Shown: positions 1 through 44,031 of the stretch, in pieces | Layout of the letters: every line of letters begins with the position of its first letter | Numbering within the stretch: the stretch's first letter is position 1 | DNA from: Triparma columacea | Taxonomy: Eukaryota > Sar > Bolidophyceae > Parmales > Triparmaceae | Assembly: GCA_030267965.1 (NCBI GenBank) | Contig: BRYA01000552.1 | Span: 1-44,031 of the forward strand | Reading direction: 5' to 3' | DNA length: 44,031 nt | Program-made: the position numbers and the translations under genes | The notes under the pieces: generated by a model | What the model was told of the DNA's origin: nothing | What the model saw: the letters and a program-made list of their open reading frames with translations, nothing else | Databases searched by the model: none

Positions 1-3000
1 GTTTGTGAAATTGCCTCTCAATTCCGACTAGAATGTTCTTGAGTGCAGTGACAACTTTTCTTTTATCTCCCTTTCTCTTTTCTGTGCTGCTTGCATTTTT
101 GCTAGAGATACCCTTGGCGGCTTCCTCCTTTTTCTTTTCTTCTAGTATGTCAAAGTGCCCTTCAAAGGTAAGAGCAGTCTGCCCGAATTCAAATGTGTGC
201 AATCTGATGTGGCCTTTCACTACTCCTCTTGGGTTGATTAAGTTGTGTTTGTCAACTTGTCTTTCTTTCAGCTCTACCTCTTTGACTGGTTGAAGGTTGA
301 TGGTACACATAGATATCTCAGTGTAGCTGGTCACTGTGAGTTTGATGATAATTTCAGCTAGACACTTCCCTTTCTCTCTTAGCTTCCAAACTACAATCCT
401 TTCTCCTGCTGCACTAATTTGAATGGTCTGCTTTGTAAAGTCCCCCTCCTTTGTGTCACTTAAAATGAAATTGAGGACTTCCTCTAGGTTCTGGTGCACT
501 ATCACACCTAACGCAGTCATGGAGTCATGCAGGTCCTGACTTTGGTGAAGTAAACCTCCAAAGGCACCTCTTTCTTCTAATTTCTTGATAATCTTTGAGG
601 TAGCACTATCAATCTCCTTGCTGCCGTCTTTCCTTTTGTTAATTGCAGCTTTTAGTTTGTCTAGCTCTTGTTGTCTAAGCTGAGGATCATTTGTGTTGGC
701 CTCTTTGGTTTTGATAATCTCTCTACTTGTCGTTTCTACAGAGTTAGGGTCTAGAAAATCTTGCTCTTGGTTAGCAGGTTTAACACTCTTACTATCTGCA
801 ATGATATCTACAATTAAACCTCTTCTCTCTTTCTCTTGCTGCCTAGCTGTGGCAGTAGGGATATATTCTAATGGTATCCTTGCTCTCATTGCCTCATCTA
901 ACCACGTTGGCTCTTCTTCTTGCCACCTCTCCCAGTTTGCCTCAACCCAACCTCTCACTTCCTCTTCAATTGACTTCCAGTGGTGTTTCGAGTACTTGAA
1001 TGAGTACTTTCCTTTAACAGCTTCTGAGCCCTCTCTGAAGTTTTTCACTGTTAAGTCTTTTCCTCTCTGTAAACTGAAGAAAGTGCTCCAATATTGTTTT
1101 TCAATATTAAGGAAGAAGATAATAAAGGAAATGACAGTAAAAGGTATAACATACCACAAAACTGTGTATGCTATCTCTACCCCTCTCTTCGCACCTTCTA
1201 GATGCTCAGCTGCCATTATTGCAAATGGAAGACTTCCTATTGTCATAACCAAACCAAACGCCCAGTTAGCCCCTCCAACCTCATTTGGTTGCCTAAACTG
1301 AGCAATTGAGGTGAAATCTGTAACGATCTTAACACAAATTCTCATTAGCGTGCTGATCAAAACTTCAACATATCCTCCTGCCGGTATCCAATACCAGAAG
1401 TCCCCTCTCAAAGTCTTTACAGCTAAGTACAGACCAAGGTCTGCCCCAATGTAGGCAAAGGCCCATCTCCTCCCCAAAAGGCCCAACAGTACAATTGTTG
1501 TACACCTGATCAACAGCAACCCTGATGACACTAAAAGCATTGATGCAAACACTATTGTCCTCTTGCTGGCCAGTGCAGGCACATAGCCGTAAAAGTCTGG
1601 TGTTTGTTTTCGCTTTTCTGGGGTTGTGTCCCAGTCATAACTGATTGTAGCTGAAATAAACCCTGTAGAAAGAATTGAAACTACCAGTGAAATCCATGCT
1701 GAATTGGCAATTTCTTTCTCCTGCTTTGTTGTTGCAATGGCCATTAGTTGAATAATCACTGCAGGGATTGCTTCTGCAAACATTTCCGCAACTTTCATCA
1801 AAGTCATTTCCATCATTGGATCAAAAAGAAGCCCAACCTTTTGCTTCTCTCCTGTGGCAACTCTAAATGCGTCCAAGGCTGGTTTGAAACCAATCAAAAC
1901 TGGAAACCATTCCCTCAGCACTCTCTTCATCCCCAACTTTCTGTTCTGTGCCCAAACAGTAAACATTTGTATCCCAATTGACACTGCTAAACTTGCCAAT
2001 GAAGCATGAAAGTACCCTTGTTTTTCATCACCTCTCGAAAACATGAGTGTAACATAGATGTCAGTCAGCAAGTCCACCATGCTCGTGGCAGCCCCAACCA
2101 TTACCCTAGCCTTGACACCCCACCTCACTTCTCCCACCAGCGTGTACCCTATTGTCTCCAGCAGTGGCCTCAGCCAAATATACTCCTTCATTAGCTGCCG
2201 TACAGCAGAATACTGATGCGCCCACTCATCGACCCCATGAGTTGCAGTTAGAGTAGTTGCTAACGTTATGGCCAAACTTGAACCAATATCCCTTCCCTCC
2301 TTTTTCTCCAAGCACTCAGCCTTTCCTCCCACCTTCACCATTGGGCGTAGCTTGTTCTCAACAACAGCACACAGACACGGCTCCATGAAACTGTACTTCT
2401 CAACAAGCTCCCTTAGTGCACTATTTGCAGCAATGAAATCTTGCACAGCTTTTGCTTTTGTCTCTCCCTTCTCCCTCTCCCTCACCCTCATCATCAACTC
2501 CTCTGCCGCAATCTTGCCATCTTCTTCTGTCATCTCAGAAGAGCTTTGCAAGTTGTTGAAGTAGAAAGATGCTGTAGTGTTTTGAGCTAGATGCTTCTTT
2601 AACACTTCAGTGGTTGCACCCTTGCTCACATTTCCTCCCAGAGACAAATTTGTCACTAATTCTACCTTCGTGTCTTTCTCTCCAACCTTTGTGAACCTCA
2701 CAGTAGTAGACTCAGTTGCCTTGGTAATTGATTTTAATGAAGAACGTTTTCTTGAGTTTCTTCTTTGCACCTCTTCTTCTCCCTCTTCAGGCTCAACTGT
2801 CATAATAAGAATGCCATCATCGACCCTCACAAGCTTCATCTTGGACAAGAACTCCCGGGTATGGTGAATTCCCCCATGCTTACTTTCTAACTTTTCAAGT
2901 CTCTTCACAACCATCTCAAATCCTCCTCTCCTTAAAATCTCGACAATCCTTCCCTTTTTTACCCAAAATCGGCTATTGACATCACAGAAGAAAGCTGCTG

Positions 3001-6000
3001 TTTCCTCAAGACCTGCTCTCACAGTTACAACACTTTTCCCCCATCCCTTCCCCCCTTCAGCTTTCACCCAAGTGCTTTTCCCCTTTATCTTCTTAGCTCC
3101 CTTGACCTCCTCAAGCCTTTTGGCAACAGTCTCACTTCCAACGGTAGCAAGTTCATTCGTCTTTTCAACTAGCCTTTTCCTGCTTACTTTGTCAATTTCC
3201 TTACTCTTGTCAAACTTCTTTCTCAAGTCTGAGACTTGTGCAAGAAACCTTGGTGCAATCTTGTTCATGATGGAAGAGTAAAAAACACCACCAAGGTCTA
3301 CCTTTGTTGTAAAAGTCACTGATGTTTGTGGCACATCTCCAATAGAGTCAAGCGGTTCAAATACCCATACTGTACTAATCTTTGCTAAAACATTCCTAGC
3401 CATCACTGGAAAGTCACCATGAAGCTCCTCTGTATCTTCAATATTAACGATAACTTTGCCATCCTGTTGCTTAGACCAGGTAACGTTACTTCTATTGTCA
3501 CGCGGAGAAAATCCAGGAATGTCAATATTCCTCGTTGTTATGTAGTAGAGAGTGTGGGGATTAATATTTATTACCTTCATAGTGGTTATCCCATTCATTT
3601 TGGCTTTCTTCATTTCGTCTCTGCTGTTCAGACCGATTATTTCATTTGCTGCACACTCCTCTACACTGGCATCAACCACAGTAGTGGCAACACCAGTGCA
3701 AAGACTTTCCCCATCAACATGAACTAGCTTCATTTTCACTCTCTCATCAGGACTCTTCAGATCATCAAAGTTCTTATCTACCTTGCACTTCTCATAGAAT
3801 TCCTTCCCCTTGCTGATTGCATCCTTCTCGTCATCTGTATAATCTTGAGGCTCATTCTTTATGATGTTGGCAAGGGAGGCCAGTGCAGCTTCATCAATCT
3901 CTTCATCCCGCTGGAAAGTTTTTGCAATGTTGTAAAGAACTCCTAAGACTTTGGGGGCTAAGCGATTCAAGACAGGAACTGGAATATGACCGCCCAAATC
4001 GAACTTCTGTCTTATGTTCATATAGCACTGATTTACTTCACCTTCAACAGCCTCCACATTGGTAGCAGTGAAGATTGCTGTGGTTGTCCCTCTTACCAAT
4101 TTGCCAATGCTACCTCCGTAGTCAACCTCTTCACCGATTGGCTTGACACCTACTGAAACTCTGTCGTTTTTGTCTCGCTTCCAAATGAAGTGCATCAAAA
4201 ACTCTCTATTTCGTAGCAGCCCCGGCATCTTTCTGACAAACGCAAAGAATTTCTCATTGATCCTCCCTCCCTGTTTTCTAACCTCAAACCTTGCTGGGTT
4301 TCCTTCTTCTCTGTCCGTATTGGCTCTTGCCCTGCTGCAGAGCAAGAAATACCACGCAGCAGCTGTGGATATATTGTGGTTAACATTTGGCATTTCTTAT
4401 CTCCCCCACCCCCTTTAATACCACTTACCTTCCTCAGCCGTGCAATCTGCCCTTCCCTCAGCTTGCACAAGTGTGATGCTTCTCTCGTTTGACTTTTGCT
4501 GCCCATGCTTCACCCCCATCTTGACACCTTGATAAGGTGAAGCAATATCCTCCCATCCACCAACACCTCCAAACAGCTTCTCCAAATCCCCAAAGACATT
4601 CTTCTGGTCCTCCTCCAACTCACTACCCTCCCTCATCCTCTCCACCAAGGCCCCCCTGACTTCAGCATCAACCTTCTTCCCATTCCTCCTCAACTTCCCC
4701 TGCAACCTGTTGGCTTGAATAAGCTGACTCTTTGCAAGGTAGTCAATTGCTTTGTCCATCAGTGTCTTATGAATGCCACTAAATTTCAGATCAACTGTTT
4801 GAATGCGTGTCACTCTGCAGACATTTGGGGCAACCTCAGCCATGATGTAGATTCCTCTTGTTACTCCAACTACAAAGCCGTCCTTGCTAAGGTTGGTGAA
4901 GCTTGCCCCATAAAATTCACGCAAAGGCACAAATCCTAGCATGTATGCAGTCTGGCCATTGTCCAATTTAGCCTCCTTCCACACAGACCAAATCTCAAAT
5001 AGTCGATTGGTGATGGCAGGGACCTTCACACCTAAATGTTGATGCAAGCTTCGAGTTCCATCGACGCCATTCCTGATCACCCTTGGTAAGTTCCCATTAT
5101 TTTTGAGGTGCTCCTCTGACCTCTCAAATGTGTCATGCAGAAATTGCTCTGCCAATACACCCTTTGCTGACTTGTCCACAGTGACCCCAAAGGCTCCCCA
5201 CACCTTGTCCCCCTCTCTCCACAGGAACTTGTCGATGCCCTCCTTCAATGTCCCCTTGACTCTCTTCCCCTTTGTGTGAAGTCCCTTCTCTAGCCCCTTA
5301 ACCCTCTCCAACATTACCTCCTCCTCTCTTGTCAGAGGCGGTGCCCTCGGCATGACCTCCTCCACAAAATGCTTCTTCCTCCTCTCATCAACCACCTCAG
5401 GCTTGCGGAAGTACTTTTCAATCTCATCAACAATACCCTTTAGGGAGGAATCAAGGCTCTCGGTGTCGACCTTTCTTTCCTTCAATGAGGCATTCTCTTC
5501 TGCTCCCAGCTGTCCTGCAATGACAAGATGAGTCTGCCCGAATGTTGTCCTCATGAGTCTCAACTCACCCTCAAATTTGACCCTTGCAGTCCTCTTGCTC
5601 GTTTGCTGCAGCTCCTTCAGCGTAAGCTTTGCTGAATTAGTCAAGTCTGTGTCCTTTACAGACGTCAATTTGATTATGTGGGAATTGTAGTCGGAGGAGG
5701 AAGATGTCTCAATGACGATGATGTACTCAATAAGGTTCCCTGCCTTCAATTGATGCTGCCAGAACACCAGTCTCGTGTTGTCTTCAAACAAATCGAGAGT
5801 GTGCCTGTGCCATTTGCCATTGCTGCAGTCCTCAAGAATGAAGCCTATTGTTTTCTCTGGGATCTCGTGGATCGTTCTCCCCAATTCCAACTTCTTGACA
5901 ATGTTGTCCCTGGAAAGATCAAGCAGACCTTCAACCGCTCCTCTAGCCTTTAACTCTTCTAGAATATTGTCGTTGATAAGGGTATATTTCTTTTCTGCGG

Positions 6001-9000
6001 ACATGACGACTGGCAGCATTGAGGGAATGGCCGAAGGAGGTGTAATTGTGTGGGTTAGGATTATTCAGTGGCACAGTCTTGAGTGGCTACGTCGGCAGAA
6101 GCACAATATAGAGTATTATAATGTATTTTTCTTTTCTGACGCTCAAGTTTCAACGCTTCCTCCCGCGACTCTCCCGCTCTCCCCTAGAGTATTAAAGTGT
6201 GTTCTTTCTCTACCGGCGCTCAACGCACAACTCACCTCGTCCAGCGTCCTCGTGGCCATCTTCAGAGTCTGCGGTAATGGCGATTATGGTGTTTGTTAGT
6301 CAAAATGAAACAGATTTTCACACGTGCTCCTCGATTCTGTGTAGCATATCAAGCGCACCACACGGTCGCCGAAGACGGAAACCATGCGGTCGCCGCAGAA
6401 GCGCCCCATGCGGTCGCCGCAGACGGAAACCACGCGGTCGCTGCAGACCAGCGTTCGCACGCGTGCGCCGCGGCAACCGCCCATCAAGCTCGACGCCGAC
6501 GACCAGGCCCTCCACAAATAGCTCCGCGCGTTCCGCACGCAGGCGGTGAGGAAAAACTACAAAGTTTCAGCGCGCCCTCCCGCGACACTTCCGCTCTCCC
6601 CTAGAGTATCAAATTGTGCTCTTTCTTTTCCGGCTCCCAACGCACAACTCACCTCGTCCGGCGTCCTCGTGGCCATCTTCAGAGTCTGCGGTAATGGCGA
6701 TCATGGTGTTTGTGAGTCAACATGAAAAGATTTCCATGCGTGCTCCTCGTTTCTGTGTAGCATATCAAGCGCCCCACGCGGTCGCCGGAGACGCAACCCA
6801 TGAGGTCGCCGCAGAAGCGTCCCATGCGGTCGCCGCAGAAGCGTCCCATGCGGTCGCCGCAGACCGGCGAGCGTTTCTGTGTAGCATATCAAGGGTCTCC
6901 CCCCCTACAACCCCCTGAAACAAACTTACCTCGGTCTCGTCCAGCGTCCTCTTGAGAGCTTTTAGATTTAGAGACTGCGAAGGGGACAACATTGTTGCAA
7001 AAGTGAGAACAAATTACAACATTTCAACGCGCCCTCCCGCGACTCTCCCGCTCTCCCCAAGAGTATTAAAATGTGCTCTTTCTTATCCGGCTCTCAATGC
7101 ACAACTCACCTCGTCCGGCGTCCTCGTGGCGGTTTTCAGAGTCTGCGGTAATGGCGATCATGGTGTTTGTGAGTCAACATGAAAAGATTTCCATGCGTGC
7201 TCCTCGTTTCTGTGTAGCATATCAAGCGCCCCACGCGGTCGCCGGAGACGCAACCCATGCGGTTGCCACAGAAGCGCCCCATGCGGTCGCCGCAGACGGA
7301 ACCCATGCGGTCGCCGCAGAAGCGCCCCATGCGGTCGCCGCAGACGGAACCCATGCGGTCGCCGGAGACGGATCCCATGCGGTCGCCGCAGACCGGTGCG
7401 AGCACCCGTGCGCCGCAGCCTCCCGTCGAGCTCGACGTCGAGGGCCAGGCCCTCCGCGAATTGCGCTCCGCGCGTTCCGCACGCAGGTGGTGAGAAAAAC
7501 TACAAGGGTCTCCCCCCCTGCGACTCCCTGAATCGAACTTACCTCGGTCTTGTCCAGCGTCCTCATGAGAGCTTTTAGATTTAGACACTGTGAAGGGGAC
7601 AACACAACACATTGCAAAAGTGAGCAAAAAATACAAAGTTTCAACGCGCCCTCCCGCGACTCTCCCGCTCTCCCCTAGAGTATTGAAATGTATTTTTCTT
7701 TTCTGGCTCTCAACGCACAACTCACCTTGTCCCGCATCCTCATGACCATTTTCAGAGTCTGCGGTAATGGCGATTATGGCGTTTGTTATGTTAGTCAACA
7801 TGAAGAGATTTCCACGCGTGCTCCTTGATTCCGTGTAGCATATCAAGCGCCCCACGCGGTCGCCGGAGACGGAACCCATGCAGTCGCCGGAGATGGAACC
7901 CGTGCGGTCAACGCAGACCAGCGCGCGCGCGTGTGCGCCACGGCCGCTGCCCATCGAGCTCGACGCCGATAGCCAGGCCCTCCGCAAACGGCTCCACGTG
8001 TTCCGCACGCAGGCGTTGAGGAAAAATACAAAGCTTCGACACGCTCTCCCGCGACTCTCCAGCTCTCTCCTAGAATATTGAAATGTATTTTTCTTTTCTG
8101 GCTCTCAACGCACAACTCACCTCGTCCGGCGTCCTCATGACCATTTGCAGAGTCTGCGGTAATGGCGATTATGGTGTTTGTTATGTTAGTCAACATGAAG
8201 AGATATCAACGCGTGCCCCTCGTTTCTGTGTAGCATATCAAGCGCCCCACGCGGTCGCCAGAGACGGAACCCATGCGGTCGCCGAAGAAGCGCCCCATGC
8301 GGTCGCCGCAGAAGCGCCCCATGCGGTCGCCGCAGACGGAATCCATGCGGTCGCCGCAGAAGCGTCCCATGCGGTTGCCGCAGACGGAGCCCACGTGGTC
8401 ACTGGAGATGGATCCCATGCGGTCGCCACAGACCGGTGTGCGCGCGCGTGCGCCGCGGCTGCCGCCCGACAAGCTCGACGCCGAGGGCCAGGCCCTCAAC
8501 GAACGATTTCAACGCGTGCTCCTCGATTCCGTGTAGAATATCAAGCCCCCCCCCCCCTACCACTCCCTGAATCGAACTTACCTTGGTCTTGTCCAGCGTC
8601 CTCATGAGAGCTTTTAGATTTAGACACTGTGAAGGGGACAACACAACACATTGCAAAAGTGAGCAAGAATTACAAAGCTTCAACGCGCCCTCCCGCGACA
8701 TTTCCGCTCTCCCCTAGAGTATTGAAATGTATTTTTCTTTTCTGGCTCTCAACGCACAACTCACCTCCTCCAGAGTCCTCATGACCGTTTTCAGAGTCTG
8801 TGGTAATGGCGATTATGGTGTTTGTTATGTTAGTCAACATGAAGAGATTTCAACGCGTGCTCCTGGTTTCTGTGTAGCATATCAAGCACCCCACGCGGTC
8901 GCCGGAGATGGTACCCGTGCGGTCGCCGCAGAAGCGCCCCATGCGGTCGCCGCAGGCGGGACCCACACGGTCGCTGGAGACGGATCCCATGCGGTCGCCG

Positions 9001-9538
9001 CAGAACAGCGCGCATTTACGTGCGCTGCGGCCGCCGCCCGTCAAGCTTGACGCCGACGGCCAGGACCTCACCAAACAGCTCCACACGTTCCGCGCAGGCG
9101 GGGAGGAAAAAATACAAAGTTTCAACGCGCCCTCCCGCGACTCTCCTGCTCTCCCGCTCTCCCCTAGAGTATTAAAAAGCAGTTTTTCTTATCCGGCACT
9201 AAACGCACAACTCACCTCTTCCGGCATCCTCATGACCATTTTCAGAGTCTGCGGTAATGGCGATTATGACGCTGGTTAGTTAAAATGAAAAAGATTTTCA
9301 CGCGTGATCCGACATGTCGTTCTTTGTCCCTTTAGAATATCAAGGGTTTCGCGACTCTCTCACCTTGTCCAGCGTCCCCACGAGGTCTTTCCATTGCCGA
9401 AGACGGAGTAACTTTCCTCTCATGGTCTAGATCGGGTACTGAATGGCAGTTATCGGACATCGGGGCGTCAACCTGAAGTATATCACTCCCCCTCGCACGC
9501 TCTTCACTCCCTCCTCGGGATTCACTTTCTGTGTCCAT
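1..9538 (-). CDS. Giant START-domain multi-pass membrane protein, 5' micro-exon array, partial at left edge
   Basis: Proposed exons (minus strand): 9538-9364; ten micro-exons between 9248 and 6236; 5994-4429; 4362 to <1. The last stays open to base 1 (frame checked at both ends and across the duplication junction). The product exceeds 2,100 residues. Seen in order: acidic N-terminus; module M1 (about 5990-5520); three START-like folds (about 5209-4654; 4519-3880; 3690-3200), the last two with the family pattern around VDASVEECAA and RKKFDKSKEID; an alpha/beta region; about eight or more hydrophobic helices (about 2130-1100); then a second M1-like module (about 595-150). START folds bind lipids or sterols, so a membrane lipid role is an inference. 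An ATG at 6019 lies in frame before the START exon and could be an alternative start without micro-exons. The START/membrane part is well supported; joining it to the 5' exons rests on matching phase and splice sites. Confidence 0.72.
6236..6268 (-). other. Micro-exon A1 (33 bp, phase 1-1)
   Basis: CCGCAG acceptor and GTGAGT donor. It encodes DSEDGHEDAGR. It is the last micro-exon before the START exon, whose own acceptor (CCGCAG, exon from 5994) is also phase 1 and gives …R-EKKYTL across the junction. Confidence 0.6.
6653..6685 (-). other. Micro-exon A2 (33 bp, phase 1-1)
   Basis: CCGCAG acceptor and GTGAGT donor. It encodes DSEDGHEDAGR. Confidence 0.6.
6930..6974 (-). other. Micro-exon B1 (45 bp, phase 1-1)
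   Basis: CCCCTTCGCAG acceptor and GTAAGT donor. It encodes VSKSKSSQEDAGRDR. Confidence 0.6.
7110..7142 (-). other. Micro-exon A3 (33 bp, phase 1-1)
   Basis: CCGCAG acceptor and GTGAGT donor. It encodes DSENRHEDAGR. Confidence 0.6.
7543..7587 (-). other. Micro-exon B2 (45 bp, phase 1-1)
   Basis: CCCCTTCACAG acceptor and GTAAGT donor. It encodes VSKSKSSHEDAGQDR. Confidence 0.6.
7726..7758 (-). other. Micro-exon A4 (33 bp, phase 1-1)
   Basis: CCGCAG acceptor and GTGAGT donor. It encodes DSENGHEDAGQ. Confidence 0.6.
8121..8153 (-). other. Micro-exon A5 (33 bp, phase 1-1)
   Basis: CCGCAG acceptor and GTGAGT donor. It encodes DSANGHEDAGR. Confidence 0.6.
8582..8626 (-). other. Micro-exon B3 (45 bp, phase 1-1)
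   Basis: Pyrimidine-rich acceptor ending CCCCTTCACAG and a GTAAGT donor. It encodes VSKSKSSHEDAGQDQ. Confidence 0.6.
8765..8797 (-). other. Micro-exon A6 (33 bp, phase 1-1)
   Basis: ACCACAG acceptor and GTGAGT donor. It encodes DSENGHEDSGG, the most diverged A-type copy. Confidence 0.55.
9216..9248 (-). other. Micro-exon A7 (33 bp, phase 1-1)
   Basis: Flanked by a CCGCAG acceptor and a GTGAGT donor. It encodes DSENGHEDAGR when joined in phase 1. Confidence 0.6.
9364..9538 (-). other. Proposed first coding exon of the START gene
   Basis: ATG at 9538 is preceded in frame by a TAA stop. The 175-bp exon encodes 58 residues of an acidic, Ser/Arg-rich leader beginning MDTESESRGG and ends in phase 1 at a GTGAGA donor. 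Its 3' end (…GACGCTGGACAAG before GTGAG) is nearly the same as the 3' ends of the micro-exons downstream, which suggests they arose from it by duplication. Confidence 0.6.
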
Positions 9539-16096: not shown

Positions 16097-17549
16097 ATGG
16101 CTTCTTTAGATCCTCAATCACGGCTATATATTGATTGTTATACCCATTATGCCCCTCCAACGCTCTTAAATTACCTATCTAAACACTGTGCTAATGGAGA
16201 AGCTCCATTCTCAGGCCTTTTCTCCAAGATTCCAACTCTCACAAGCATCGACAAGCGCATAGTAAGTCACTCCCCCCCACACTTACCGTCCTGGATAACT
16301 TCGCACCCAAATGTTCTAACCCTAATACCCCTCCTTGCAGAGCTATATGGACAAAATAAGCGCCAAATTCCAAGGTAGATTGGTGCACGTCCTAGTCCCC
16401 CTCCCCTGGCTCCAAGCTTGCCCCGTAGTCTCAAACTCCGTCCCCCTTAGCATAGAAGCGTGCATGGTATGCAACAGGTGGGTTCCCAACTTTTTCGGCC
16501 CAACGTCTATTCTGGTCGTCGTCCCCCTGTCGAGTCAAAAAGAGCCCCCTTACAGTCCCTGTTATCTAACCCCATAACCCCATACACAAAGAGCCATGGC
16601 TACAGTCGTGTCCCTCCACCCCACCTATTTCGTAGGCGTCGGTCTAATTTCAACCGAGCTAACAACCTCCGCCCTAATGTCAACCGCCCTCTCCGCTCTT
16701 TCTCTCGGTTTATCAGGTTTCGCCGTATTCGTAGGTCCCGATATGTCGCACCCCATGGACGACCTTAATTTCTGGGGTGAATTCTACAAGCTATGCGAGG
16801 AGAGGGACGTTGGAATATGGTTGCACCCAAACCGCCCACAGTCCCACTCCGACTACAAGGTAGATAACAAGGGTTCGAACGGAAGCAAGTACGCAATCTG
16901 GAATAGCTACGGGTGGATATACGATACCTCGGTTGCCATGGTGCATATTGCGGGGGGAGGGGTATTCGAGAGGTACCCGAAGATCAAGATTGTGGGACAC
17001 CATGGGGGGGGGATGGTCAAGGTGAGAGGGCTTAGGGGGGGGAGGGGGAGGGGGGGATTTGGGGGGGAAGGGGGGGGGGGCTTTGGGGGAGAGGGGGGAT
17101 TTTGAAATGTTCGGGAAAGGTGGGTATGGAGTGAATACGCGTCACTAACATCCATCCCCCGTGCACCTGTATCCCCCCTTTCTCCCCCCTTTTCTCAGGA
17201 TTTCACCGACAGGTTTGAGGTTCAACGAGGTAATTTTGGTATGAAGGGTCGTGACTGGACTTCCGATTTGCGTTTGTTCTACGTGGACACCGCGTCCTTC
17301 GGTTACCAGCCTAGCGGCGTAACCAGGAGCAGGGAATTCTTCGGGGAGAAAAGGGTATGCTGGGGGACGGATAGTCCGATGGATATGGAGATACCTGGAC
17401 TCTTTCATAGGGAGGGGGTAAGAAGCGTTGAAGACGCTGTTGGGGAGGACGAGGAAGCGAGGGAGAGGATTATGGGACGGAACATGGAGGAATTCTTGGG
17501 GGGGGAAATCGTTAAGAGATTAAGGGGAGGGAGGGGGGGGAAACTGTAG
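16097..17549 (+). CDS. Amidohydrolase-2 family protein (ACMSD-like decarboxylase/hydrolase)
   Basis: Exons 16097-16261, 16341-16477, 16592-17021 and 17199-17549 give 360 residues. Family marks: HPTYF, the metal-region histidine in GIWLHPNRP, the helix YDTSVAMVHIAGG, the active-site KIVGHHGGGM, and the Asp of CWGTDSPMD. These resemble aminocarboxymuconate-semialdehyde decarboxylase and related TIM-barrel decarboxylases. The usual N-terminal HxH metal motif reads DCYTH, so the first His is replaced by Tyr; substrate and metal use are uncertain. The third intron is strongly G-rich on its 5' side. The 3' 195 bp of the last exon are tandemly repeated just downstream. Confidence 0.75.
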
Positions 17550-17767
17550 TGGATTTTCTGAAGGGGAGATGAGGGTTTGCTGGGGGACGGATAGTCCGAT
17601 GGATATGGAGATACCTGGACTCTTTCATAGGGAGGGGGTAAGAAGCGTTGAAGACGCTGTTGGGGAGGACGAGGATGCGAGGGAGAGGATTATGGGACGG
17701 AACATGGAGGAATTCTTGGGGGGGGAAATCGGAAAGAGATTAAGGGGAGGGAGGGGGGGGAAACTGT
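17353..17767 (+). repeat. Tandem duplication of the amidohydrolase terminal coding segment
   Basis: 17353-17547 and 17573-17767 are near-identical 195-bp copies at a period of 220 bp, differing at only a few positions (for example gaag/gatg, gttaag/ggaaag). Both are open and end with their own stop. The second copy has an AG acceptor just before its start (…GGGGAG|ATG), in frame with a possible GTATGC donor at the start of the first copy. Confidence 0.9.
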
Positions 17768-21237: not shown

Positions 21238-22164
21238 ATGTCCAGCTCAGCAGTGTACTCTGGCGTAGAGAGCTTCAGTGACAACGATGAACTCACAGAG
21301 GTGACTTTTGATAAGGGAGTGACAACGATTGGCGAACGCGCCTTCCAAGGATGCTCCTCCCTCGAGGCCATCACAATCCCTGACGGAGTGACAACGATTG
21401 GCTATGGCGCCTTCAGGGGATGCATCTCCCTTGCAGCCATCACCATCCCGGACTCAGTGACGACGATTGACAAATACGCTTTCCAGTTATGCTCCTCCCT
21501 CGCAGCCATCATAATCCCAGACGGAGTGACGACGATTGACTATTGCGCCTTCTACGGATGCTCCTCCCTCATTGCCATCACAATCCCGGACGGAGTGACA
21601 ACGATTGGCGAATACGCCTTCTACGGATGCTCCTCCCTCACGGCCATTACCATCCCAGACGGAGTGACAACAATTGGCGATCGCGCCTTCAGGGGATGCT
21701 CCTCCCTTGCAGTCATCACAATCCCAGACGGAGTGAAGACGATTGGCGATGCCGCCTTCAGCAGATGCTCCTCCCTCGCAGCCATCACAATCCCGGACTC
21801 TGTGACGACGATTGGCTGGTACGCCTTCTTCGAATGCTCCGCCCTGACGAGACTCAGTTTATCTCCTGCCGTCTCCATCGGTAATGAGTGCTTCTCAAGC
21901 TGCACTGCCCTAATCTCTGCAGCTGCCGATCAAAATATGTTGACTGTTGAGGACCTCCTCAATTCTAGGTGGCACCGCATACGTGAACGCGTCAACGCTC
22001 TGCTGTGCCTTAAGGGAACCTGGGATCACGTGGAGAACCCACCCAGGAGATCGGCGAGGAAGCGGAAGCGAACTGATGGAGTTGAAGCCCCAGCGCTAAG
22101 GGTAACTGAGGCACGTGAGAAGATCCCGAAAGTTTTGTGGAGAGTTATTCTGGAATTTCTGTAA
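21238..22164 (+). CDS. BspA-like leucine-rich repeat protein (LRR_5 family)
   Basis: Single-exon gene of 308 residues. About eight 23-residue repeats of the form AITIPDGVTTIG-xxAFxGCSSL run from residue 20 to about 215, at a 69-bp period in the DNA. A shorter C-terminal part holds a basic patch (RRSARKRKRT) that may be a nuclear signal. BspA-type LRRs form right-handed solenoids used for protein contacts, and such genes are often multi-copy in protists. There is no signal peptide or transmembrane segment, so this one is probably intracellular. The very even repeats suggest recent unequal crossing-over. Confidence 0.85.
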   Translation: MSSSAVYSGVESFSDNDELTEVTFDKGVTTIGERAFQGCSSLEAITIPDGVTTIGYGAFRGCISLAAITIPDSVTTIDKYAFQLCSSLAAIIIPDGVTTIDYCAFYGCSSLIAITIPDGVTTIGEYAFYGCSSLTAITIPDGVTTIGDRAFRGCSSLAVITIPDGVKTIGDAAFSRCSSLAAITIPDSVTTIGWYAFFECSALTRLSLSPAVSIGNECFSSCTALISAAADQNMLTVEDLLNSRWHRIRERVNALLCLKGTWDHVENPPRRSARKRKRTDGVEAPALRVTEAREKIPKVLWRVILEFL

Positions 22165-40096: not shown

Positions 40097-43000
40097 ATGG
40101 GGTCGAGGTGGTGTAAAAATGTCCCCCTCCCGAGGAGTTACAAAGTGTCCCATATGTGCCTAATCTTTTGGACCTGCTTAGTCCTAGTCGGAGGGAGGTC
40201 ATTGACTGAGGTGAATGTGGTCGATATGAACGGGCTGTTCAACACGATCAGTAATTATGCAAGCTCCAGTGTTAACACTGGCAACTCCATCATGGCGAAT
40301 GGTGACTCTGCGATTTTAGCTGATGGGTCGTATAAATGCTCAGAGGGGACTTGTGCAGATAGTGAGATCATGCTGTACACATATTACTTGAATGGAGAGG
40401 TCAAGTGTGTGGAGGACAACGCAAGCTGTGTGTTGGATGGAGAGAATGCAAGAGGAGGGATGTGGGTGAGGGGAACTGGGAGTGGTACACTTATTCTCCG
40501 AGCTCTCACCTTCGACAAGGGGGATAGTGCTGTTGGTGGAGGGGTTTACATTAGGGATGGTGCCACAGTGGACTTGAAGCTCTGTATCTTCTCAAACAAT
40601 AGAGCTACATTTGGTACTTGGGGAGGTGGAGCAATTTATATTGGTAGTACTGGAGGTACTGTAAATGCCTACGGAACAAGCTTCAATGGAAACACAGCAG
40701 ACTCAGGAAATGGTGATGATATTTACAACAATGCTGGAACCATCACCATCCACAATACGTGCCCTTCTCCCTACTCCTCCAACACTCCAATCCAAGGTAA
40801 GACGAGAATGAGGATTGTGTAGTCTGTAGAACCATTCCTAACCCCACAACTCAATTTACGTTACCGCTGCACCAATTCCTATTCCCTTCCCTCTCTCCTT
40901 TCCCCAGGGTCTGCTTTGGGCACTTCCGGCACCGTCAACGGCAATAAATACTCGTACTCTGAGTGCTATTACTACTGTGATGCTGGCTACTACAACCCAT
41001 CCGGTGGAGCTTCAAGTTCAGATTGTGACCCTTGTTCAGCAGGAACGTTCAGTGCTGTTGGAGCAACCTCCTGCTCTAATTGTGCTGCAGGGAAGTTTAG
41101 CTCATCAACTGGGGTCTCGCCAGACTGCACCACGTGCCCTTTCGGAACCTACACCTCCAGTCCAGGCTCCTCCGCTTGCACCAGTTGCCCTTCCGGCAAG
41201 ACGAGCTTCACCAGTGGCGCTACCTCGGACTCCGTTTGTGTGCACGACTCCACCCACGAATGGGACTTCATGGGGTGCTCAGATGAAAGCCCAACTGTGG
41301 ACGAAACTGACGGAAGCTCCCTCAAGGCAACGGCCAAGAACGGCGCGACCTGTTCTACAGAGGGAATGGTTTTTGATGGCGTAAACGATTGGGTTGACAT
41401 TGACGACTGGGAGTGGGGTGGGACCACGTCCATCGAGGTGTACGTCAAGTACGACAGCTTCAACAGCTACAGTCCTGTCTTTGATTTTAGCAACGGAGCA
41501 CAGAGTGACAATGTCAGGTTGGCCAACTCAGGAACTATATCCACAATCGGTTGGAGCGTTCGTCAGGGATTAACGAACAAGTACGTCTCAACGAGCAACT
41601 TTGACTCCTCCACCTGGACGCACGTGGTCGTCACCGTCTCAGGCACCACCATGAAGGTCTATAAGAACGGCGCCCTAATTGGAACCAATACAGACGCATG
41701 GGAGCCCGTCGTCCTCACTCGTTCCCAGCACTGGCTTGGCCGATCTGCCTGGTCAAGCGATGGCTACCTTGACGGCACCATCGCCAAACTAAAAATCTGG
41801 CACAACAAGGAGCTCTCCCTCGAAGAGATCAACGCGCTCCCCAAGATGTCTTGCCTCCCAGGCACTTTCGGTTCCGGCTACCCAGACTGCCAAGTCTGCC
41901 CTGCTGGTGCCTACTCCTCCTCCACCGCCTCCTCCCTTTGTACTACCTGCCCAATCGGCACGTACCTCTCTGACGACGGCTTGACCGCCTCTGAACACGA
42001 CCATGTTGAAGACTGCGCTGTGTGCGAGGCTGGAAAATACAATGACGACGCTGCCACCGACTCCAACCATCACATCTCCTGCAGCGTCTGTCCCGATGGA
42101 ACCTATAATGCTGATCAAGGCACCAGCGCCGCCAGCCACGTATCATGCACTAACTGCCCTGCTGGAAAGAAGAACGACAAAACCGGAGCCACCAACCACA
42201 ACGGCGCTGATGACTGTGACCTTTGCTCTCCAGGGACTTACGCCGCAAACCCTGGCTCTGCGACCTGCGCTACCTGCCCCGAGGGCGAGTCTAGCGGACC
42301 TGGTTCCACCAATTGCGGAGAATGCCCCGCAGGCTACGTCTGCACTTCTGACGGACGACAGGAACCTTGCCCCTCGGGTAAATATAGCTCCGGGAGCAGT
42401 GCGTGTTTAACTTGCCCCCCTGGTCACAAATGTCCAGGTGCTACGGACAAGATCTCGTGCGATGCGGCAACCTACCAGCAGAGCGAAGGCCAGGCGAAAT
42501 GCAAAATTTGCGGAGCTGGGAAATATCAGCCGGATGAAGGCCAAAACAGCTGCCAGACTTGTCCTGCGGGATACTTCTGTCCCAGGGCGTCCTCCACCGC
42601 CCTCCCTTGTGGAACACCCGCCCTCTACTGCCCCGAATCTAGCTCCAGTGTCACCCCTGTAGCGCCAGGCCACTACACCTTGCCTGCCTTGGACGAGTCA
42701 ACCACCACCCGCTCGGCACAGCAAATATGTCCAGTTGGCCATGTCTGCACTGGCGGAACGAAGAGGTTGTGCAACGACGAAGGCGAGTACTCGGACGAAA
42801 CAGGGCTCTCTGCCTGCAAGTCCTCCCCTGCAGGTTTCGTGCCAAACACGGGTCACACTGGGATCGTTGCGTGCCCGACAGGCAAGTACTCTTTTGGGGG
42901 CGAGACGAAATGCACTGTGTGTTCTATCGGCAAATATAGCGACACTCCCGGATCAGCTGGGTGCAAGGCTTGTGAACTTGGCTCAGTTACAGGCTATGTT

Positions 43001-44031
43001 GATGATAGAGGCACCTCTTCTTGCCTCCCGTGCCCCACTCCCTCGTATTCAAATAATGGTGAACATTGTAAAAATTGTGACGGAGAGGGTCAATTTAGCG
43101 ACAAAACTGGGGCCTTTTCCTGCCAAACTGCAAAAGCCGGACACAAGCCGACGGAAGACCGCAAGGGAGAGGAGCAATGCCCAGCAGGAAAATACTCCAC
43201 TGGCGGAGCTGACGAGTGTCTACAGTGCGGTGAAGGTGAAACCAGCAGCACGGGAGCAGCAGGTTGCTCTACCTGCGCTACTTGTGCTACCGGTAGATAC
43301 ATGATCAATGCCTGCACTCCTACTTCAGAGACAGAGTGCGGAGACTGCCTAGCGGGGACAGCGTCAATTGGAGGCGCAGTGACGGAATGCACTCCGTGCA
43401 ACGTTGATGGCAAGTACTCAGAGAGAAACCTTGCTAGGTGAGCAAAGGCGTAAATCAAATACTACAGCTCACAAATTTCGGCTCACAAACGCTAACTTTC
43501 TTGCTCTTCTGTTCGCTCACCTCAGCTTCTGCCAGACAGCCCCTGCAGGCTATAAACCCTCCTCCGACCGCACTTCCTTAACAATCTGTCCCAAGAATAC
43601 CTTTTCTATTGGAGCCAACGACACGTGCACAACCTGCCAAGAAGGAACTATTTCCAGGGTTGGTGCTTCCTCCTGCCTCCCCTGCCCCCAGCACGAGACC
43701 CCAAATGAGGATACGCAATCTTGCGACTGCATGCCATCCTTCTCCAGAATAGGTGATGGCGACTCATGTGCCTGCAAGGCCGGGGAGACCCTCATGGGTA
43801 CCTCCTGCGAACCTTGCGAGAAGGGGAAATGGAAGTCATCAATTGGCGTCACGAGCTGCTCTCGTTGCGAGGACACTCTGAAGGGGTCCATCACTGAGAA
43901 GCCTGGTTCAACCTCCTCATCTTCCTGCATCTGCCCAATGGCAACATATGACAACGGTGAGGGCAAGTGCATTGAGATTGTTGAGGGCATCAGGAACGAC
44001 GTTGAGGGCTTGACGCTGGAAGCTCTGACAC
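40097..44031 (+). CDS. Secreted beta-helix / LamG / GCC2-GCC3 cysteine-rich protein, partial at right edge
   Basis: Exons 40097-40796, 40908-43437 and 43526 onward (phases 1 and 2), giving more than 1,240 residues. The first 35 residues hold an uncleaved-type or internal signal segment (MCLIFWTCLVLVGG). Residues about 100-225 have parallel-beta-helix marks like bacterial polymorphic outer-membrane proteins (GGGVYI, FSNNRA, GGGAIYI, FNGNTA). Four ephrin-receptor-like GCC2/GCC3 repeats follow (CSAGTFSAVGATSCSNCAAG type), then a LamG/concanavalin-like domain (WTHVVVTVSGTTMKVYKNG … GTIAKLKIWHNKELS), then at least a dozen and a half more GCC2/GCC3 repeats to the edge. This is an extracellular adhesion- or receptor-like product. 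Such proteins are often multi-copy in stramenopiles. No membrane helix is seen yet; it may lie beyond the window. Confidence 0.85.

Follow-up and report, generated by a model that had tools for sequence, protein, structure and literature searches.

The 44,031 nucleotides (nt) of contig BRYA01000552.1 from the bolidophyte Triparma columacea, a photosynthetic stramenopile (assembly GCA_030267965.1), referred to here as the window, carry on their minus strand a gene that is predicted to start with an array of micro-exons and to continue into large exons reaching the contig end. Exon 1 is followed by ten micro-exons of two types (a, type A; B, type B) in the order a a B a a B a B a a, and these are followed by an exon with two folds of the START superfamily. 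GC-rich minisatellites are located in the array introns. The features are as follows:

9364..9538, minus strand: exon 1, 175 nt, opened by an ATG and ending in phase 1, MDTESES...RGDAGQ (58 amino acids), with homologs in 24 of the 40 arrays described below
9216..9248, minus strand: micro-exon 1, 33 nt (type A), DSENGHEDAGR, found like the nine below by pattern search
8765..8797, minus strand: micro-exon 2, 33 nt (type A), DSENGHEDSGG
8582..8626, minus strand: micro-exon 3, 45 nt (type B), VSKSKSSHEDAGQDQ
8121..8153, minus strand: micro-exon 4, 33 nt (type A), DSANGHEDAGR
7726..7758, minus strand: micro-exon 5, 33 nt (type A), DSENGHEDAGQ
7543..7587, minus strand: micro-exon 6, 45 nt (type B), VSKSKSSHEDAGQDR
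7110..7142, minus strand: micro-exon 7, 33 nt (type A), DSENRHEDAGR
6930..6974, minus strand: micro-exon 8, 45 nt (type B), VSKSKSSQEDAGRDR
6653..6685, minus strand: micro-exon 9, 33 nt (type A), DSEDGHEDAGR
6236..6268, minus strand: micro-exon 10, 33 nt (type A), DSEDGHEDAGR
4429..5994, minus strand: large exon following the array, with its acceptor in phase 1 and two folds of the START superfamily (structure model)
4363..4428, minus strand: predicted 66-nt intron GTAAGT...CACAG within the large coding region
1..4362, minus strand: large exon, continued, with an open frame up to the contig end and a weak XK-related (PF09815) match
6351..6448, unstranded: 24-bp GC-rich minisatellite in an array intron
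6767..6863, unstranded: 24-bp GC-rich minisatellite in an array intron
7224..7393, unstranded: 24-bp GC-rich minisatellite in an array intron
7851..7909, unstranded: 24-bp GC-rich minisatellite in an array intron
8240..8433, unstranded: 24-bp GC-rich minisatellite in an array intron
8884..9004, unstranded: 24-bp GC-rich minisatellite in an array intron

The ten micro-exons of the first-pass annotation (seven of 33 nt and three of 45 nt) were recovered exactly in number, length, strand, and range. Each is bordered by a CAG acceptor (AG in the first-pass annotation) and, as reported before, a GTGAGT or GTAAGT donor; the donor of exon 1 is GTGAGA. Exon 1 ends in phase 1, all ten micro-exons are phase 1-1, and the acceptor of the START exon at 5994 is in phase 1 again, which agrees with the earlier assignment. 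The pattern CAG-(33 or 45 nt)-GTRAGT occurs nine times in 9364-6237 (the tenth donor lies outside this slice), whereas 1,000 dinucleotide-preserving shuffles of the region contained 0.02 such segments on average and never more than one. Variants of one motif (HEDAGR/HEDAGQ) had been ascribed to all segments; this is to be corrected to HEDSGG for one 33-nt exon and to QEDAGR for one 45-nt exon. The array had also been described as acidic, which applies to the whole (net charge −23 over 122 amino acids) and to most 33-nt exons, but not to the approximately neutral 45-nt exons.

The START fold reported downstream of the array was confirmed. Fold comparison placed two START-superfamily domains with the helix-grip fold at residues 33–196 and 221–435 of the 521-residue model. 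Because neither a Pfam scan nor a PDB sequence search gave a match for this exon, the START label rests on the fold comparison and on homologs. The similarity of the continuing exon to XK-related (XKR) proteins (PF09815) is weak in the window protein (18 bits, below the cut-off of 24.8) and reaches 25.0 bits in the homolog P0001. The gene is cut off at window position 1, and its 3′ end lies beyond the window; the protein has about 2,000 codons or more, of which the array is only the tail. An Rfam scan of the window gave no matches.

The assembly searched for related arrays comprises 789 contigs with a total of 37.9 Mb. For the published T. columacea assembly, the parts of the genome paper covered here give 43.0 Mb in 1,858 scaffolds (PMC10328945), so the one searched has presumably been cut or filtered differently. 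A 401-bp piece of the array had at least 142 matches (best 40 of 236 candidates scored), and the START exon had at least 142 as well (best 83 of 437 candidates), one of them with an in-frame stop; for large families such as these, match counts are lower bounds. Grouping of the array matches by eye yielded 39 other arrays on 36 contigs in addition to that of the window. The acceptor followed by 33 nt and a donor was found at 329 sites in the assembly when up to three mismatches were allowed (reversed-pattern control, 0), and the 100 sites listed were all mismatch-free. The acceptor anchor alone (up to two mismatches) gave 375 sites, and a fused form, in which the unit opens the large exon as in loci L013 and L022, was found at 18 further sites. 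The array is a member of a multigene family located at contig ends and apparently near telomeres, a point absent from the earlier reading.

The 40 arrays contain 165 micro-exons (110 A of 33 nt, 37 B of 45 nt, 16 B of 33 nt, and 2 B of 39 nt). These counts are based on the anchors and are lower bounds, and some array stretches are cut by contig ends; locus L043 has one extra 33-nt exon with a different acceptor outside the anchor count. There are 1 to 10 micro-exons per array, the window array having the most, and the 40 arrays show 26 distinct exon orders. The exon duplication proposed in the first-pass annotation is supported. In the closest paralog among the matches listed (C422, START exon 85% identical), the micro-exons run B a a B a a a, unlike those of the window. 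The site of the 66-nt intron is continuous coding in 14 of the 40 arrays, the other 26 being either unreached or unmatched in the motif (the two cases were not told apart). The open frames of C422 and C740, the two closest paralogs listed, and of the window are of similar length (549, 550, and 549), which would fit a shared recent gain of this intron.

Donors were searched at free positions, with GT required and at most one mismatch to GTGAGT/GTAAGT. Of the type-A acceptor anchors, 114 end in AG, and in 110 of these a donor follows exactly 33 nt on; the other four belong to the fused form opening the large exon (confirmed for L013 and L022). The +5 donor base is G in 110 of 110 type-A exons, and a branch-point-like CTAAC, CTCAC, or CTGAC is present upstream of 103 of them (counted without a control). 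Between neighboring micro-exons, 125 introns of 120–577 nt were measured, whose lengths modulo 3 are distributed 47/43/35. Only five of them are open in frame, which rules out intron retention as a coding mode. The exon 1 homologs in 24 of the 40 arrays, including the window, have 175 or 178 nt, all 1 modulo 3, and a GTGAG donor. Phase-1 acceptors of recurring sequence, of five kinds, precede the large exon in 19 of the 19 loci examined by a script that reported phase-1 acceptors only.

The final base is G in 165 of 165 micro-exons. The codon at each junction therefore starts with G and is never a stop, so that every subset keeps the frame, as had been stated for the window, where the 1,024 combinations are arithmetically correct. 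Phase 1-1 and the terminal G would allow gain, loss, or skipping of exons without harm to the large protein body. From this frame safety, the first-pass annotation had derived combinatorial alternative splicing, in which varying subsets of micro-exons lead to many N-terminal isoforms per gene (up to 1,024 for the window copy). The many copies of intact-looking arrays would suit such a mode, and exon skipping in vivo is reported, in the parts of the source covered, for the micro-exon genes (MEGs) of Schistosoma, the nearest analogue (PMC4015677). However, tandem duplication of a phase 1-1 exon gives the symmetry automatically, which makes the symmetry no evidence for skipping, and selection for easy exon gain and loss would preserve frame safety too. 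The donors are uniform and consensus-like and, judged without a splice-strength score, show no sign of weak or differing sites; their constant position at 33 nt and the invariant +5 G fit constitutive inclusion at least as well. Combinatorial splicing is therefore considered possible but unlikely.

Selection on the exons was assessed from the ratio of nonsynonymous to synonymous differences per site (pN/pS). For 89 distinct type-A exons, it was 0.298 in the predicted frame and 0.994 and 1.239 in the other two. A set of 53 type-A sequences from other contigs, copied by hand from the 100 mismatch-free sites, gave 0.309 in frame as opposed to 1.55 and 1.31 (9 sequences overlap with the 89; the union is 133). 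Differences from the A consensus amounted to 194 synonymous and 176 nonsynonymous ones, with an expected synonymous share of 0.23–0.29. Variation at high frequency affects codons 3 (E/K), 5 (G/R/S), 9 (A/S/T), and 11 (R/Q/G), and the splice borders of the type-A exons hardly vary. The frame-specific constraint on the 33-nt exons supports the coding micro-exons of the earlier annotation. Hypermutable CpG as the source of the third-position changes is not favored (CpG observed/expected 1.22 in the array); the CpGs of the acceptors barely vary, the anchors having been chosen for similarity there.

The constraint bears directly on the view that the array is an untranslated subtelomeric repeat, that is, a repeated leader or decayed duplicates, with translation from about 6019 just before the START exon. 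There is an in-frame ATG at 6019, the unit is repeated together with its introns (the at least 142 matches), one exon contains a stop, seven exon 1 homologs lack the ATG, and conservative counts of variant states are near neutral. An untranslated repeat would not be expected to show frame-specific pN/pS in two sets of 33-nt exons, exon lengths that are all multiples of three next to intron lengths that are not, a donor placed precisely 33 nt on in each of 110 cases, or a frame running open from an ATG to the donor in all 24 exon 1 homologs (in seven only from a later ATG). We regard this explanation as very improbable.

All 40 arrays face a contig end, at a distance of 7–9,709 bp (median 5.8 kb). 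Among the matches listed, TTAGGG repeats lie beyond the array or the fused exon (approximately 5–12 kb) on C2, C34, C70, C83, C92, C105, C106, C118, C269, C277, C285, C313, C314, C327, C340, and C341. Many of the faced contig ends, including that of the window, are without a telomere, and on C84, C133, and C223 the listed telomere is located at the end opposite the array. Contigs C70, C71, and C75 (75,484, 84,296, and 67,733 bp) bear telomere repeats on either end and are apparently whole chromosomes of about 68–84 kb; if they were typical, the genome might consist of hundreds of mini-chromosomes. The genome paper, as far as covered, gives an N50 of 73–83 kb for four of eight parmalean assemblies and of 63.5 kb for T. 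columacea (PMC10328945); the covered part of the T. laevis genome announcement contains neither "telomer" nor "chromosome".

According to the same parts of the genome paper, no T. columacea RNA was sequenced and genes were predicted from protein hints only; for T. laevis f. inornata, T. verrucosa, T. retinervis, and Scaly parma, there are RNA reads (PMC10328945). The RNA-free prediction TrCOL_g13771 (P0021) is 100% identical over 892 amino acids to locus L028 on contig C161 and joins two of its micro-exons to the large exon of that locus. Protein searches gave no spliced array product apart from P0021. Five predicted proteins from ena/jgi sources (P0032-P0036) contain unspliced exon 1, some of them together with intron and array sequence including an A exon, so the arrangement exists outside this assembly too; two joined micro-exons were found in none of the five. 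The MMETSP transcripts P0013 and P0016, presumably from bolidophytes, encode homologs with a different start and without HED repeats. Judging from these two transcripts, relatives of the gene are probably transcribed, and the array looks like a later addition.

The start of P0021 is also relevant for a further model, in which translation could begin within any block, at the ATG of ATGTTGACTAAC... that precedes many A exons, under alternative promoters; P0021 begins at such an ATG (MLTNITNTIIAITA-DSENGHED). Conservation nevertheless drops upstream of approximately −30 (nucleotide diversity 0.55 at −60 to −31, determined without gap alignment), the conserved stretch resembles a branch point plus acceptor, and a conserved exon 1 is present upstream in 24 of 40 arrays. 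Alternative first exons are very improbable in our assessment.

The preferred explanation is based on what the sequence shows, namely the exact geometry of the exons, the conservation of their splice sites, the constraint on the 33-nt exons in the predicted frame, and the position at contig ends. With a probability of about two in three, the arrays consist of real coding micro-exons that would form the N-terminal tail of a telomere-proximal, giant START-plus-XKR-like membrane protein of a large T. columacea family.

Several points weigh against this explanation. Support for the array is confined to DNA sequence and gene prediction. The arrays are recent relatives, and their shared ancestry inflates the substitution counts, which are not independent; the most conservative count, that of variant states, gave 16 synonymous and 38 nonsynonymous ones, near the neutral share, and column permutation gave only P = 0.027. 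The B exons show no clear frame effect, neither those of 45 nt (pN/pS 0.594 vs. 1.445 and 0.508) nor those of 33 nt (0.827 vs. 1.03 and 0.60). The 39 other arrays are the best-scoring matches to the window's own array and not a random sample, and acceptor conservation is partly built in by anchors sought with up to three mismatches. Seven of the 24 exon 1 homologs have no ATG at the homologous place (six AAG, one TTG) and need a later in-frame ATG. One 45-nt type-B micro-exon (L022, on C277) has an in-frame TGA with a long open exon downstream; it could be either a dying copy or one that skips that exon. Exceptions to the contig-end position, taken from among the matches listed, are an A anchor on C179 (82,796, minus strand, contig of 91,413 bp) that faces inward, an anchor on C58 (5,286, plus strand, contig of 20,556 bp) about 15 kb from the faced end, and anchors on C122 (56,951–57,880 of 72,407) about 14.5 kb from it. 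Finally, we only infer that the GC-rich 24-bp minisatellites of the introns might help the exchange of units.

For the coding micro-exons, default inclusion combined with DNA-level exon turnover near telomeres is the best-supported mode. The array would be transcribed and spliced, and its micro-exons would be included by default, so that gene copies would differ in the repeat number of their mostly acidic and probably disordered N-terminal tails. The main source of new combinations would be changes in the DNA itself, with exon–intron units duplicated, lost, and exchanged between chromosome ends.

Elsewhere in the window, an open reading frame resembling leucine-rich repeats is built of 69-bp tandem units (GVTTIGDRAFRGCSSLAVITIPD, 21238-22164). 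A tandem duplication of 220 bp with 97% matches was found at 17343-17767, and a cysteine-rich protein with ten ephrin-receptor-like stretches and a laminin-G-like domain is encoded at 40916-43441.

If the preferred explanation is correct, a free-living alga from the sister group of the diatoms has a micro-exon-array gene family that lies close to chromosome ends, in regions of usually rapid recombination, with the arrays joined to a lipid-transfer/scramblase-like protein. Two questions could then be examined in a natural system: whether tandem micro-exons provide diversity of isoforms or diversity between gene copies, and how exons of 33–45 nt are recognized among introns of 120–577 nt. A more far-reaching proposal is that a hundred or more chromosome ends each carry a combinatorially spliced START-XKR-like gene and that this recombining repertoire at the telomeres gives a unicellular alga thousands of N-terminal isoforms, a Dscam-like diversity system outside animals; this appears improbable.

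MEGs of the Schistosoma type, to which the tandem-exon 10.3 antigen family belongs, are defined by many very short exons with lengths of 3n, and their exons are symmetric. The 3n length applies to 165 of 165 micro-exons in the 40 arrays. As covered here, the Schistosoma source likewise describes very short exons strung together in families of many copies, with small, apparently secreted products in which micro-exons make up as much as 75% of the coding sequence (PMC4015677). In the window, micro-exons total 366 nt compared with more than 5.9 kb of large exons and are thus not a large part of the coding sequence. Unlike the Schistosoma MEGs, the array is only the tail of a large protein, lies near contig ends and telomeres, belongs to a photosynthetic stramenopile, and is known here from DNA. 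Expansion of START genes is documented for the same clade, START being among the most enriched parmalean domains, with a maximum of 141 genes, reached in Tetraparma gracilis (Ban et al., 2023, PMC10328945). The main text of that paper contains neither "telomer" nor "intron", and the sections covered mention no micro-exon arrays. In contrast to XKR proteins, the XKR-like part of the window protein is fused to tandem START-like domains. Further subtelomeric variant gene families besides stevor and rif are var and VSG. In the material covered, stevor and rif likewise represent large families near chromosome ends with a copy-specific variable part, and the arrays share the location next to telomeres; in the T. 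columacea family, unlike in these, the variation consists in the micro-exon number of an N-terminal tail, and the host is a free-living alga.

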